Positions 1 through 33,855 of a stretch of DNA of 33,855 nucleotides are shown one piece after another. The DNA comes from Deltaproteobacteria bacterium (lineage in GTDB: Bacteria; Desulfobacterota; Binatia; HRBIN30; JACQVA1), in contig JACQVA010000188.1 of NCBI GenBank assembly GCA_016210005.1, positions 1 through 33,855 on the forward strand, given 5' to 3'. The position numbers and the translations under genes are program-made. Position 1 is the stretch's first letter. Every line of letters begins with the position of its first letter. The notes under the pieces are model-generated. The model was not told the origin of the DNA. It ran no database searches and was given only the letters and a program-made list of their open reading frames with translations.

Positions 1-54
1 CCGCAGCTCACTCAGTCGTGCCAGTCCCTGCGTTGCGCTGTTCTCCCTTGCCAT
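1..54 (-). CDS. Start of an unidentified gene, cut by window edge
   Basis: Reading leftward, an ATG at 52-54 opens 18 codons (MARENSATQGLARLSELR) that run off the window edge. A good ribosome binding site, AGGAGG, lies eight bases upstream, which is the main reason for the call. Nothing in 18 residues identifies a family. A longer overlapping frame in the same direction (start at 428) ends at 12 and looks like the readout of the neighbouring repeat unit, not a gene. The stretch from 55 to 307 holds nothing else I recognise. Confidence 0.35.
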   Translation of the reverse strand, partial: MARENSATQGLARLSELR

Positions 55-312
55 TCGACCATCCTCCTCTCGTCGAGATGGCCGGGGAGGTTAGTCGAAC
101 GCGACGTCAGCGCGCATGCATGCTCACCGGAAGGACACAAACAATCCGGGCAATGGCTGGCAGGCGTCATCCGCCGCGGCGTTCTCGACCCCGTTGATCT
201 GCCGGGGTAGGCAAGGCCTGGGGCTGGTGGGTCTTGATGCGAACGCGGCGTCGCCGAGTTGCTCGCCATCGGCCACCGCGTCGCCCAATACCCGGCCACC
301 CCAATTCCTACT

Positions 313-321
313 TTCGTCTTC
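313..321. repeat. Left 9-bp target-site duplication
   Basis: TTCGTCTTC directly abuts the left end of the repeat unit at 322. The identical nine bases occur at 750-758, directly abutting its right end. A flanking direct repeat of this size is the usual footprint of transposition. Confidence 0.8.
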
Positions 322-377
322 GGGTGTGCGACAAATCTGTGGGTAACGTGCAGCCGACCGGGCAAATCCTCACCAGT

Positions 378-400
378 CTGACAGTACTGTGTACTGTCAG
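378..400. repeat. Perfect 10-bp-arm palindrome in the GIY-YIG unit
   Basis: CTGACAGTAC and its exact reverse complement GTACTGTCAG are separated by TGT. The site lies 56 bases inside the left end of the mobile unit and overlaps the 3' part of the nuclease frame. It is conserved without change in the second copy (33768-33790). Possible roles are a protein-binding or cleavage site for element movement, or a transcript hairpin near the 3' end. Confidence 0.75.
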
Positions 401-684
401 GCCGAGGCCCATGCCGAAAGGGACGCAATTTGTCATCTTCCAGGCGCGGCGCCGCTTCTTCAGCTGCTTCTCCCGCACGATTGCGGTCTCTGTGGAGCCG
501 TGCGCTTCGTAGTAGACCAGCTTGGCAACGCCGTACTTGGCCGAAAACCCTCCACTACCTTGCTCTTATGCTGCCACCCCCGCGTTGCCAGCTGTGAGGT
601 CACCCCAATGTACAGCGTGGCGTTCCGTTTGCTGGCCAGGATGTAAACGCAGAACTGCTTGTCCATAGCGCCAAACGCCAAACT

Positions 685-709
685 GGATTCCCACTTTCGC
701 GGGAATGAC
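685..709. repeat. REP-like hairpin (ATTCCC...GGGAAT type)
   Basis: GATTCCC and GGGAAT flank a short loop containing CTTTCGC, followed by GACGG. This is the dispersed palindrome that translates as FPRKWESS or VIPAKVGIQ in many high-GC genomes. Here it lies inside the mobile unit between its right end and the nuclease start codon. A related pair lies at 14607-14710. Confidence 0.7.
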
Positions 710-749
710 GGCCATAACACCGAACCACGTTACCCACAAATTTGCACCC

Positions 750-758
750 TTCGTCTTC
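750..758. repeat. Right 9-bp target-site duplication
   Basis: TTCGTCTTC is identical to 313-321 and begins at the base after the right end of the mobile unit. Removing 322-758 would restore a single uninterrupted target sequence. Confidence 0.8.
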
Positions 759-802
759 CCGCCGGTTGACGTAGCTCCGTCACGCCCGTAGGCTGCAGGC
801 AC

Positions 803-1525
803 ATGTTACTGCTAGCTCTAGTTCTGGTGGCTGGCGCGTTTGCGCTGTATACGCTGGTGCCCGCGCTGTTGCTGTACTGGATCTATCCGTGGCCGGTTTA
901 CGTGCTGCTAGCGGCGGCGGTGGGCGCCGCGGTGATGAGCCGGCGGCGCGGCTGGCTGCGCCCCGCCGCTATCGCCACCACCGCGCTCTTGGCTGGGTTG
1001 TTTGTGGTCTACTCGTTGCTCCAGTCGCAACTCCATCCCGCACCGCTTGCCGTCCGCGCCGGCGACGTGTTCCCGGAATTCACGCTCAAGACCTCGACGC
1101 AGGAGAGCTTTTCGCCGGCGCAGCTCAAAGACCGGCAGGCGGCGCTCTACATCTTCTATCGCGGCGACTGGTGACCCTTCTGTCGCGCCGAGCTCGGTGA
1201 GCTCGGGAAATACTACCAGCAGATCGAAGCGCAGCAGGTGAGACTGTTCGCCGTCAGCACCGACCTGCCGGAGGTGGCCGAGGCATTACGCCGGCGGCTG
1301 CATTGCAACTTCACCTTTCTCACTGACCCGGAAGGCAAGGTGCTCGATCTGCTCAACATCCGCCATCGCGGCGGCCGCAGGGCGGACCACGGCGACATTG
1401 CCTACCCGACCCAGGTGCTCGTCGGTCGCGACGGGATCGTGCGCTGGACCTACCAGTCCGATTACTACCGCGTCCGTGCCGCGCCCGAGCAGATCTTCGC
1501 CGCCATCGCTGCTCTACCACGATGA
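803..1525 (+). CDS. Membrane-anchored peroxiredoxin-like selenoprotein (TGA = Sec124)
   Basis: Read through one in-frame TGA at 1172-1174, the frame gives 240 residues. Residues 1-72 hold two or three hydrophobic segments. From about residue 85 an AhpC/TSA-type thioredoxin fold follows: GDVFPEFTLKTS, then YRGDW-TGA-PFCRAEL, then LFAVSTDLPEV, FLTDPEGKVLDLL, YPTQVLVGRDGIVRW. The family motif is W-C-P-F-C, so TGA falls exactly on the first, redox-active Cys and gives a UxxC centre. Reading frame and homology continue unbroken to the TGA at 1523-1525. A stem-loop just after the codon fits a bacterial SECIS. Selenocysteine Prx-like proteins are known in bacteria; a simple nonsense mutation or base error is the alternative. 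The expected role is thiol peroxidase or reductase activity at the membrane. The Shine-Dalgarno is weak, so the start is less certain. No selA, selB or selC is present in the window. Confidence 0.75.
1172..1206 (+). promoter_or_regulatory. Candidate bacterial SECIS element
   Basis: After the TGA and 13 spacer bases, CCGAGCTC (1188-1195) pairs perfectly with GAGCTCGG (1199-1206) around the loop GGT (1196-1198). The loop starts 22 bases after the TGA and has G in its first two positions. Both match the general bacterial SECIS description of a UGA-to-loop distance of about 16-37 bases with an early loop G. A caution: the stem comes from a tandem GAGCTCGG that encodes ELGEL, so it could arise by chance in GC-rich coding DNA. 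Confidence 0.55.
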
Positions 1526-1559
1526 GGGGCGGGCCAACCGCTCTGTCTGGGAGCGCAGA

Positions 1560-1880
1560 TCAACCGTAGCGGTAGCTGATTCCAAAACCGCCCGCCGGGT
1601 ATTTCCAGGAGATATTCCCGAAGGGGCAGATCACGCGGCAGGTTCCGCATTCGATGCAGCTATCCCAGTAGATCGTGGTCCGGCCGTCGGCCTCCACGCG
1701 GTAGTTCTCCACCGGGCAGGTCACGGTGCAGGGCTTCGCCGTGCAGCGCAGGCACACGGCTTGGTCAGTGATCTTCAGATGCGGATCGTGTTCGTTGACG
1801 CGAATGACATCGAGCGCCAGCTGGTCGTCACGGCCGAGGATCTTTGGCGGACCGAGGTAGTCAGTCAGATTTACAGGCAT
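1560..1880 (-). CDS. fixX: FixX-type ferredoxin-like protein
   Basis: A 106-residue iron-sulfur protein. C43, C46, C51 and C55, with C75, C78, C81 and C85, form two clusters (CLRCTAKPCTVTC and CIECGTCRVIC). The C-terminal GGFGISYRYG is typical of FixX. In the family, FixX partners FixC and passes electrons between electron-transfer flavoprotein and quinone. The gene starts 15 bases after the fixC stop, with a GGGG-rich stretch just before the ATG, so the two are very likely cotranscribed and translated as a pair. Its 3' end faces the peroxiredoxin gene 34 bases away. The second cluster has the full CxxCxxCxxxC spacing. The first, CxxCx4CxxxC, is the degenerate kind often seen in FixX. I see nothing unusual in length. 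Confidence 0.9.
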   Translation of the reverse strand: MPVNLTDYLGPPKILGRDDQLALDVIRVNEHDPHLKITDQAVCLRCTAKPCTVTCPVENYRVEADGRTTIYWDSCIECGTCRVICPFGNISWKYPAGGFGISYRYG

Positions 1881-1895
1881 CGCTCGCGCCCCATT

Positions 1896-3218
1896 CTATA
1901 GCAGCGCGCGGCCGAAGTCGGCGACGTCGCGCATGAACGAGAACACGCCGATCTCCGCCAAGAAGTGATCGAGCACATCGAGCTCGAGTTGGCGCTTGGG
2001 AATCTGGTAGTCGGCGTCCGTGGCGGCCACGGTCATCAGCTTCCTGGCCATCGCCGCCAGCTGCTGCGGATAGGAGCCGAACAGTCGAGGATGTTCTTCG
2101 GCCATAAGTGTCAGCCGCTGGTAGCGCTCCATATCCTGCCAGGCAAAGCTCTGGCGCAAGCGCTGCTCGTAGCGCCCGAGCGTGTGGGCGGAGAAGTCGC
2201 CGCGCTTGTGCGCCTCGATGATGGCCTCGGCGGCGAGCAGCCCCGAGGCCATCGCCATGTTGGTGCCCTCGTGGAATATCGGGTTGGCGTTGACCAATCC
2301 GGCGGCACCGCCGATCACCACCATGCCGCCGGTCACCAGTCTGGGAAGGTCTTGCGGTCCCAGCTCCGGGATCAGGTGCGCCGCGTATTCCTCCGGGCTG
2401 GTGCCACGCAGCAGGCGCCGTACGCACGGGTGCTGCTTGAAGGCATTGAGCAACTCCCGCGGTTGCTGCTGGCTTTGCTTGAGCGCGTGCAGCGGGCAGC
2501 CGAAGCCCACCGATAGGGTATCTTTGTTGGTGTAAATGAAGGCCGCACCCATGAGGCCCTTCACTGCCTCACCGCCGATGTATTCGATGGCGGCGCCCTC
2601 GTCGCCTTCGAGATTGAAGCGGTCTTCGATCACTTCTCGCGGCAGGGACACCACCTCTTTGACTCCGAGAATCACCGACAGTGGCAGCTCGCGGCGTAGC
2701 CCGGCCTGCTTGGCTAGCAACGAGTTGGCACCGTCGGCGGCAATCACCACGTTAGCGTAGACCTCGCCGCCCTCGCGCCGCGCACGCACGCCGACGATCT
2801 GCTCCTCTTTGCGCAGCACCTCGTCCACGACCGTCGCCGTTATCAACATCGCCCCGGCTTCCTCGGCTCGGCTCGCCAGCCAACGATCGAAGCGCGCGCG
2901 CAAGGCGGTGAACGAATGGTTGAAGTACGGCGGCTCGAAGTCGCAGAAGCGGAAGCCGGCGGACACCTCGTTGCTTTCCGACAGCAGCGCGAAGCGCTTC
3001 TCGACCACGTGCCGCTCGACGCAGCCCGAAGTGTGAAAGTCGGGGAACAGACGCGCCAGGATCGGGGTGTAGAGCACGCCCCCGAACATAGCCTTCGAGC
3101 CCGGCGCGTCGCCGCGCTCGAACATGACGACGCTGAGCCCAGCCTTGGCGAGCGCGTAGGCGGCGATGCAGGCGCCCGGACCGGCTCCCACGATCGCGAC
3201 ATCGAAGCGCTCGCTCAT
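1896..3218 (-). CDS. fixC: FixC-type flavoprotein-quinone oxidoreductase
   Basis: A 440-residue FAD protein of the geranylgeranyl reductase/ETF-QO superfamily. The N-terminal Rossmann motif VAIVGAGPGACIAAYALAKA (about residues 8-27) is followed by the FERGDAPGSK loop and the mid-protein VIAADGANSLLAKQAGL motif. The C-terminal FAD motif VIGGAAGLVNANPIFHEGTN is also present. In the family FixC takes electrons from FixAB (ETF) and works with FixX at the membrane. The pair here has no fixA or fixB upstream or downstream within the window, so it may serve an ETF encoded elsewhere or another donor. The start at 3218 follows the first plausible ATG; the only purine-rich stretch (GAGATAG) lies some 12 bases upstream, so the start is moderately certain. 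Confidence 0.88.
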   Translation of the reverse strand: MSERFDVAIVGAGPGACIAAYALAKAGLSVVMFERGDAPGSKAMFGGVLYTPILARLFPDFHTSGCVERHVVEKRFALLSESNEVSAGFRFCDFEPPYFNHSFTALRARFDRWLASRAEEAGAMLITATVVDEVLRKEEQIVGVRARREGGEVYANVVIAADGANSLLAKQAGLRRELPLSVILGVKEVVSLPREVIEDRFNLEGDEGAAIEYIGGEAVKGLMGAAFIYTNKDTLSVGFGCPLHALKQSQQQPRELLNAFKQHPCVRRLLRGTSPEEYAAHLIPELGPQDLPRLVTGGMVVIGGAAGLVNANPIFHEGTNMAMASGLLAAEAIIEAHKRGDFSAHTLGRYEQRLRQSFAWQDMERYQRLTLMAEEHPRLFGSYPQQLAAMARKLMTVAATDADYQIPKRQLELDVLDHFLAEIGVFSFMRDVADFGRALL

Positions 3219-3412
3219 AGCGGCACGCTATCTCGCCCGGAGCCAAAGTTGAAGCGCCGCCGCCAAGATGTCCCGGCGGGGCGGCATGAAAACGCGCACA
3301 AGTGAGGTGACACTGGGCGCCGCACGATTGCGAAGCTGCCAATCAAACGCCTAGGTGAGCCGCACGAGATCGAAGGCGCCGCTTCTACGCCGAAACCGGC
3401 TTGCGGTCGGCC

Positions 3413-3556
3413 TTATCGACGAGGCCGTCGGCTGAGCGCAGGCTTCACCTCAACTCCCCAGCTGCATTGCCGCACTAGCCATCGCGGCTTGCAGTCGGCG
3501 CCCAAGCCGCTCGACGCCCCGGTGATCAGCGCGGTCTCGCCGTTGAGTACGGACAT
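3413..3556 (-). pseudogene. Truncated short-chain dehydrogenase N-terminus
   Basis: The ATG at 3554-3556 has a strong upstream ribosome binding site (AAGGGGAAG). It opens MSVLNGETALITGASSGLGA, the cofactor-binding start of a classical short-chain dehydrogenase/reductase (TGxxxGxG). After about 22 residues the similarity ends. The frame turns into an Arg/Pro-rich tail and stops at codon 48, against about 250 for the family. The downstream DNA to about 3330 holds no clear remainder, only a possible C-terminal scrap, so an internal deletion is more likely than one frameshift. Together with the surrounding 3219-3412 and 3557-3682 it fills the space between fixC and the lipoprotein gene. Confidence 0.6.
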
Positions 3557-33650: not shown

Positions 33651-33855
33651 CTAATTGGATACGCTACCGCCATGCCAAGAGCAAGCAGGTCCAAGCCGAG
33701 TTGAACGCTTGGGGTGTGCGACAAATCTGTGGGTAACGTGCAGCCGACCGGGCAAATCGTCACCAGTCTGACAGTACTGTGTACTGTCAGGCCGAGGCCC
33801 ATGGCCGAAAGGGACGCAATTTGTCATCTTCCAGGCGCGGCGCCACTTCTTCAGC
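33651..33855 (-). CDS. GIY-YIG nuclease C-terminus, second copy, cut by window edge
   Basis: From the window edge the frame reads LKKWRRAWKMTNCVPFGHGP, keeping the Trp that is mutated in the first copy. One extra base near 33804 moves the tail into a different frame from copy one (HGPRPDSTQYC in place of MGLGLTVHST). The frame has no stop inside the repeat unit and ends in flanking DNA at 33651-33653. The catalytic part lies outside the window, so I cannot say whether this copy is intact. Confidence 0.55.
   Translation of the reverse strand, partial: LKKWRRAWKMTNCVPFGHGPRPDSTQYCQTGDDLPGRLHVTHRFVAHPKRSTRLGPACSWHGGSVSN
33712..33855 (-). mobile_element. Left end of a second GIY-YIG mobile unit
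   Basis: From GGGTG at 33712 to the window end the sequence matches 322-464 with two substitutions (369 C versus 33759 G; 454 G versus 33845 A) and one inserted G near 33804. The match starts exactly at the base defined as the left end of copy one, and the sequences before it are unrelated. Both copies point the same way. The nine bases before it, GAACGCTTG (33703-33711), should recur after its far end if it also made a 9-bp duplication. Confidence 0.8.
33768..33790. repeat. Second copy of the perfect 10-bp-arm palindrome
   Basis: CTGACAGTAC, TGT, GTACTGTCAG, the same as at 378-400. It is unchanged although the surrounding 144 bases carry two substitutions and an indel. Confidence 0.75.

Follow-up and report, generated by a model that had tools for sequence, protein, structure and literature searches.

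Among the repeats closest to those described here are the CGTC REPs, short hairpins to which dRS3 of Neisseria belongs and which are widespread in bacteria, and for which the available parts of a 2013 survey report that no dedicated enzyme was found (PMC3733652). Another REP system, REPIN-RAYT, joins GTAG REPs to HUH tyrosine transposases. Stand-alone GIY-YIG proteins of prokaryotes were assigned to the Slx1 family in the available text of a 2006 phylogenomic paper. We found no publication joining GIY-YIG nucleases to CGTC REPs in a literature search whose coverage left subscription papers and preprints mostly outside.

We analysed a window of 33,855 nucleotides, the whole stretch that makes up contig C188 of a 5.9-Mb assembly in 268 contigs (hereafter the host genome). 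Our main reading, to which we assign a probability of roughly 0.7, is that it holds two nested mobile units, with an ISKra4-driven MITE outside and, inside it, the relic of a CGTC-REP/GIY-YIG unit whose nuclease would nick the REPs. The features concerned are the following.

313-321, no strand: left 9-bp target duplication TTCGTCTTC, a perfect match to 750-758.
322-350, forward strand: 29-bp terminal inverted repeat at the left end, of ISKra4 type, its core matching ends beside ISKra4 transposase pieces.
379-399, no strand: TGACAGTACTGTGTACTGTCA, a second palindrome, lying within the left arm (DNA fold with its neighbours, -9.6 kcal/mol).
431-436, no strand: internal-deletion scar in which TGTCAT, the start of the second CGTC-REP, is fused to nuclease codons, from by-eye comparison with the 488-bp copy L041.
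437-666, reverse strand: GIY-YIG nuclease gene remnant (PF01541) that has its start codon at 666, carries a frameshift and lacks the C-terminus.
684-710, reverse strand: CGTC-tagged REP hairpin with an imperfect stem, the upstream end of the nested unit, from its fold and sister copies.
726-749, reverse strand: right terminal inverted repeat, lacking 5 bases that sister copies have.
750-758, no strand: right 9-bp target duplication TTCGTCTTC, a perfect match to 313-321.
33712-33855, forward strand: second copy of the outer element, starting at the homologous base, its remainder cut off by the contig end.

The outer unit (322-749, 428 bp) reads GGGTG from 322 and CACCC up to 749. It begins with GGGTGTGCGACAAATCTGTGGGTAACGTG, and its right end is the inverted form minus five bases; in the family as a whole, the complete inverted repeat measures 29 bp (GGGTGYGCGACAAATYTGTGGGTAACGTG). 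These inverted ends, noticed in the original prediction, are real: a 25-bp end core (at most 3 mismatches) matched the host genome at 126 forward and 145 reverse positions, 271 in all, compared with 0 matches for the reversed pattern used as a control, so the core does not recur by chance. The perfect 9-bp direct repeat and the second copy beginning at the homologous base (33712), both also part of that prediction, were borne out. Many contigs of the host genome begin or end within the outer element, indicating that the element broke the assembly. The palindrome at 379-399, composed of TGACAGTAC-TGT-GTACTGTCA, is present in many of the MITE copies read.

Twenty-seven distinct complete copies were read in the host genome, the window copy being excluded because its right end is shortened. 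Their short length (90-488 bp), the many copies marked by the end cores and the lack of a transposase gene are those of a MITE. Comparison of the 9-base flanks showed agreement at 9/9 positions in seven copies, at 8 in three and at 7 in two, and at only 0-4 in the other fifteen, which therefore carry no duplication, a lack that the MITE reading has to explain by recombination or misassembly. Since 12/27 complete copies agreed at 7-9/9 positions compared with 5/702 cross-copy comparisons, the outer family makes 9-bp duplications; on checking every full copy for one, these 12 show it and the 15 do not. The left flank of one copy was the right flank of another (CTTTGCGGG, L009 and L130), a pattern expected if copies had recombined or been misjoined; swapped duplications as the explanation for all the missing ones were rejected, with one clear case only. 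Perfect duplications surrounded three gene-free copies of 90, 148 and 149 bp, which hold neither nuclease nor REP, and, at unrelated sites, two 244-bp copies that keep both REPs and almost no gene, indicating that the nuclease gene is not needed in cis. The junctions of the 148- and 149-bp copies do not correspond to a precise empty site, and these copies may be either ancestors free of the cassette or products of deletion. The window element DNA had no match in the plasmid collection, while 9/57 other genomes of relatives matched it, and among the matches listed these were to the REP hairpin alone, with the exception of a weak nuclease-gene match in G029, so that these matches revealed no empty MITE site in a relative.

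Beside the element, the window carries an AhpC/TSA-family peroxiredoxin-like gene (803-1525, forward strand) that matches PF00578 with 80 bits when a TGA is read through. This in-frame TGA replaces the first cysteine of the motif (DW-TGA-PFC), making the product a candidate selenoprotein, and an Rfam search of window positions 1-3500 returned nothing SECIS-like. Further along, on the reverse strand (1560-3218), a ferredoxin with an ETF-QO 4Fe-4S domain adjoins an FAD-dependent oxidoreductase, and the two presumably form an electron-transfer pair.

ISKra4 elements have ends and duplications of characteristic sizes, the duplications generally being 9 bp. We searched 148 genomes of the class, the host genome included, for the end pattern of the outer unit, and among the 147 others found six places in four genomes, compared with one hit for the reversed control. 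At four of the six places (L144 in G134; L145-L147 in G138, the latter three being copies in one genome), the 19-bp core GTGCGACAAATTTGTGGGT stood behind ISKra4 transposase pieces, and in both genomes the stop codon of such a piece lay 7-8 bases ahead of ACCCACAAATTTGTCGCACACCC. Matches of these pieces to NF033572 (E=1.8e-28 and 1.8e-32 for two pieces in G134, 1.7e-5 for a tail in G138) all scored under the whole-protein cut-off, the pieces being fragments. The ends seen beside them, which carry the 19-bp core, were right ends only, left ends not being recovered. The end-pattern search also found a TIR-like site in G063. The idea of an undescribed family was thus not supported for the outer unit, and matching ends beside a conventional transposase, which the original prediction had itself named as evidence that would overturn it, were what G134 and G138 contained.

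In the host genome, one ISKra4 element had an open transposase frame (L148; 308 bits, cut-off 205), with ends GGGCGCACGACAGG... and a 9-bp duplication (GGTTGCTAG), as in the window copy and 12/27 other copies of the MITE, and an ISKra4 relic (L152) ended in GGGCGCACGACACATTTGTGAGG. The ends of L148 are built like those of the MITE yet differ at 11/29 positions at each end, and L148 is therefore a cousin rather than the partner. Among the end matches listed for the host assembly, none belonged to a complete autonomous element sharing the ends of the MITE. When 20 stretches were checked for a transposase between unpaired ends, seven had an end far from a contig edge and without a good partner, and by eye the sequence at these seven ends departs from the MITE within a short distance. 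A weak 2.4-kb end pair at L124 had 9 mismatches on one side, and an ISKra4 search of the host genome gave no match there. A genome of the same order (G008, L143:1091-1529) holds an ISKra4-type, MITE-like unit with related ends ~430 bp apart and other contents.

Considering that the 19-bp core lies directly behind ISKra4 genes and that gene-free copies are perfectly duplicated, the outer unit is best read as a non-autonomous, ISKra4-type MITE. These same two observations support the option of a MITE moved in trans that had been raised at the outset. The mover is probably a known transposase family, and we infer that an ISKra4 transposase moved the window MITE itself. In the process we propose, an ISKra4-family transposase would recognise the 29-bp ends in trans and make the 9-bp target duplications, and the MITE would have multiplied in the host genome and decayed through internal deletions.

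The only gene of the outer unit had been described as a GIY-YIG nuclease, and PF01541 was indeed found in the remnant (26.7 bits, cut-off 22.6), but the frame breaks after 68 aa, which makes it a pseudogene. In other MITE copies read, the nuclease gene was cut short, ran on through the right end as a fusion or had lost internal sequence, with the N-terminal motifs kept in some read-through frames, and no full-length native gene was found in the copies read. The 488-bp copy L041 retains both REPs, and because the longer copies (L038, L041, L060 and L096) preserve a NPDWRDLYDEIV-type C-terminus together with the second REP hairpin, the inner unit was a gene between two REPs facing each other in inverted orientation. 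The intact REP form in sister copies, CGTCATTCCCGCGAAAGCGGGAATCCA, has the tag, stem, loop and tail of CGTC REPs and agrees with the definition of CGTC-1 REPs given in the available parts of Di Nocera et al. (PMC3733652). The GIY-YIG gene and hairpin within the MITE are the remains of a nested unit consisting of a CGTC-REP, the gene and an inverted CGTC-REP. The earlier idea of a nuclease and REP-like hairpin forming a mobile unit was a good one at this inner level, where the REP-GIY-YIG-REP arrangement is recurrent and is present or absent at sites, but is not supported at the outer level. Such a unit, in which the gene for a ~96-aa nuclease lies between two inverted CGTC-REPs with tags outward, would have been caught in the MITE and amplified along with it.

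We scanned 84,980 species genomes with an intact nuclease relative (from L073) and confirmed 266 places, retaining the best 80 for analysis. The record titles of these best 80 of 266 include Desulfobacterales, Alpha- and Gammaproteobacteria, Myxococcales, Nitrospinota, a Dehalococcoidales and a Candidatus Liptonbacteria MAG, and the CGTC-REP/nuclease unit stands without the MITE in several phyla. REPs were called by a finder requiring a tag, a stem and a tail; the nearest ones lying no more than 150 nt from the gene were taken, with other genes of the same loci as controls. An outward REP pair was found at 21/80 nuclease genes (best 80 of 266) compared with 2/263 neighbours (Fisher p=1e-12). 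Within the same best 80 of 266, 31 nuclease genes had no REP within 150 nt, the other 28 were mixed or one-sided, and the nearest downstream REP was reversed in 11. An earlier and narrower finder, replaced by this wider one, had given REPs on both sides at 30/80 in any orientation and at 16/80 outward, compared with 1/262 controls. Bare outward REP pairs ~75 bp apart start to start, the layout of a gene-free unit, were observed at L295, L296 and L291 and in genome G036.

The nuclease was also present in records of Neisseria gonorrhoeae, Sinorhizobium meliloti and Novosphingobium aromaticivorans, whose groups are named as CGTC-REP hosts in the available parts of PMC3733652. It lay within a dense array of CGTC REPs in N. 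gonorrhoeae (16 in 4.3 kb) and, in Novosphingobium, between two inverted hairpins with CGTC outward and a stem not starting with AT, which were seen by eye and missed by the finder. Across ten named records, the finder placed an outward pair nearest to the gene in two, Aeromonas caviae and Neorhizobium, and gave no REP in Planktothrix and Novosphingobium. On a Planktothrix agardhii plasmid (L365), a relative of the nuclease has a type IIL restriction gene on one side and DISARM drmA on the other, with GTCATTCTGAG-type repeats near.

An alignment of 28 subfamily members showed the motif tyrosines, the arginine, the glutamate and the C-terminal asparagine to be invariant in 28/28. The two tyrosines, Arg and Glu are those that define the GIY-YIG superfamily, and we take these residues and the Asn to have catalytic roles. 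Because 140/143 genomes of the class have some GIY-YIG protein, a count of all such proteins per genome was dropped and subfamily scoring was used instead. Scores exceeded 150 bits in 16 of the 143 genomes besides the host genome and reached 125-138 in four genomes of genus g17, the 150-bit limit following a score gap and having been chosen after the gap was visible. In these genomes, an outward REP pair was nearest at 9/19 scorable loci, with L302 left out of the count since it lies at a contig edge and the motif was not found. In the four g17 genomes, CGTC REPs of another type (CGTCATGGCCGGGCTTGACCCGGCCATCCA and CGTCATTCTCGGGCTTGACCCGAGAATCCA) occupy the corresponding place, and CGTC-1 REPs are absent. 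We infer that the subfamily belongs in the Slx1 family.

The most likely way for such a unit to spread is as follows. The nuclease, as a structure-seeking GIY-YIG enzyme, would nick at or near the REP hairpin in its cruciform or single-stranded form, and repair would then copy the REP-bounded segment elsewhere, with gene-free REP pairs as the non-autonomous form, as REPINs are to RAYTs. The nuclease is a candidate for the enzyme that spreads CGTC REPs. The broader claim, that a small GIY-YIG nuclease is the dedicated spreader of CGTC REPs including dRS3, in place of an HUH enzyme, with gene-bearing units autonomous and bare pairs non-autonomous, is held tentatively, at slightly less than even odds.

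For the association of nuclease and REPs across genomes, the host genome was excluded because the MITE had multiplied its REPs, at least in part. CGTC-1 REPs occurred in 49 of the 142 other genomes of the class, and the nuclease (>150 bits) was found in 16/49 REP-bearing compared with 0/93 REP-free genomes (p=6e-9, for genomes that are not independent and with relatedness uncorrected). The four g17 genomes (125-138 bits) sit among the 93 without CGTC-1 REPs, and when they are counted as nuclease-positive, 16/20 nuclease genomes have CGTC-1 REPs. The median number of REPs in REP-bearing genomes was 65.5 with the nuclease and 9 without (p=0.001), and in a genus with nine genomes the range was 92-745 with it versus 10-128 without (p=0.03). 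The nuclease was lacking above 150 bits in four genomes rich in REPs (91-168).

The alternative that survives best, and that we nevertheless consider unlikely, is that the nuclease is a homing endonuclease placing its gene within REP pairs that were already there, the REPs being its target and spread by another enzyme, for example a Y1 (RAYT-like) transposase. Homing endonucleases cut, at a recognition site, alleles that lack their gene; some known ones are of the GIY-YIG type, and insertion of this sort predicts an identical anatomy. Y1 transposases were associated with REPs (42/49 REP-bearing versus 39/93 REP-free genomes, p=4e-7) and occurred in all 16 nuclease genomes, but within Y1-bearing genomes the nuclease still tracked REPs (16/42 versus 0/39); the number of REPs among REP-bearing genomes showed no difference by Y1 presence (p=0.24). 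No outward CGTC REP pair, and hence no HUH Y1 gene flanked by REPs in the manner of REPIN-RAYT, was found at 20 Y1 genes taken as a sample from the REP-bearing genomes of this class; four of these genes had a one-sided REP within 150 nt with its tag inward. Nor do the available parts of Di Nocera 2013 place any CGTC REP beside tyrosine transposase genes (PMC3733652).

Sites with and without the unit were found in two groups. Among the genomes of genus g17, G022 and G076 carry the unit between genes A and B, G079 and G081 carry it beyond B, and G078 has it beyond B in inverted orientation, giving two sites and two orientations in one genus; it is absent from G077 and G080, with no REP in the 4 kb read. 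In Azospirillum lipoferum 4B, the nuclease lies between sufB and sufC with a REP pair on either side, the outermost REPs pointing outward and the nearest ones inward. sufB and sufC are adjacent, with neither nuclease nor REP in the stretch, in A. ramasamyi (97.9% identity to A. lipoferum over matched flanks), A. oryzae, Azospirillum sp. B510, A. thermophilum and A. argentinense, and these five empty sites without a REP argue against homing into REP pairs already in place. For the inner unit, neither a duplication nor an exact empty site could be resolved. The ends of the A. lipoferum insertion were unreadable because the intergenic DNA has diverged. The A. lipoferum region matched 115 plasmid records, of which one covers at least 80%.

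Less likely again is that the REPs beside the nuclease are mere terminators or insulators gathered by a horizontally moved gene, without any mechanistic link. Hairpins can end transcription. REPs also lie mostly downstream of coding regions according to the available parts of PMC3733652, but at the nuclease genes outward REPs stood upstream at 31/80 (best 80 of 266) compared with 10/263 controls (Fisher p 2.5e-14), besides 32/80 versus 14/263 downstream (Fisher p 4.5e-13). The two REPs were, moreover, identical in 9/21 outward pairs from the best 80 of 266 places, compared with 1.1 from shuffling, and the identical pairs include odd REPs (CGTCATCCCCGCGAAAGCGGGGATCTC in L177 and CGTCGTCCCCGCGAAAGCGGGGACCCA in L226), although each genome's own REP consensus could account for part of this identity. 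GIY-YIG proteins of the next tier (104-117 bits) had REPs at 1/9 loci, a single REP 22 nt downstream of the gene, which also argues against terminators gathered without a link to this nuclease.

That the outer 428-bp unit moves itself through its own GIY-YIG nuclease, as the original prediction allowed, is highly improbable, for while many longer copies hold part of the gene and some read-through frames retain N-terminal motifs, three gene-free copies are perfectly duplicated, the window copy is frameshifted, the copies read include no full-length native gene and the end core adjoins ISKra4.

Under the reading of an ISKra4-type MITE around a CGTC-REP/GIY-YIG relic, the window would record one mobile element capturing and amplifying the wreck of another. 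Should the nuclease be the spreader of CGTC REPs, then REP-enzyme systems would have arisen at least twice, from unrelated enzymes, different nuclease lineages would pair with different REP sequences, and a role would be given to genes annotated as 'GIY-YIG nuclease family protein' or 'excinuclease ABC subunit C'. With a nuclease gene lying between CGTC REPs and following their presence, the origin of these repeats is open to direct testing by means of a single ~96-aa protein and a 27-mer.

Set beside known systems, the outer unit shares with ISKra4-family insertion sequences and their MITEs the ends starting with GGG, the 19-bp core, the 9-bp duplication and transposase pieces adjoining that core, and differs in having no transposase of its own, in carrying a foreign nested unit and in that its exact autonomous partner was not found. 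The nuclease resembles the UPF0213 or Slx1-like stand-alone proteins in domain and size, the nearest solved structures being 1ZG2 (E=3.8e-6) and 1YWL (E=8.9e-4), but forms a distinct subfamily (VYILASKRNGTLYxGVTS...KKWRRAWK...NPxWRDLY) set off by the score gap of the class search. Its hairpins resemble the CGTC REPs of PMC3733652, in the parts of that paper available, in their CGTC/TGTC tag, 8-9 bp stem starting with AT, 4-5 base loop, CCA-like tail and frequent arrangement in opposite pairs, whereas here a GIY-YIG gene lies between the REPs, and those parts of the paper report no associated transposase and make no mention of UPF0213. As in REPIN-RAYT systems, short hairpin pairs occur with the gene of a DNA-cutting enzyme that the repeats can flank, but the enzyme here belongs to the GIY-YIG nucleases, which have no relation to HUH transposases, and the tag of the repeats is CGTC instead of GTAG.
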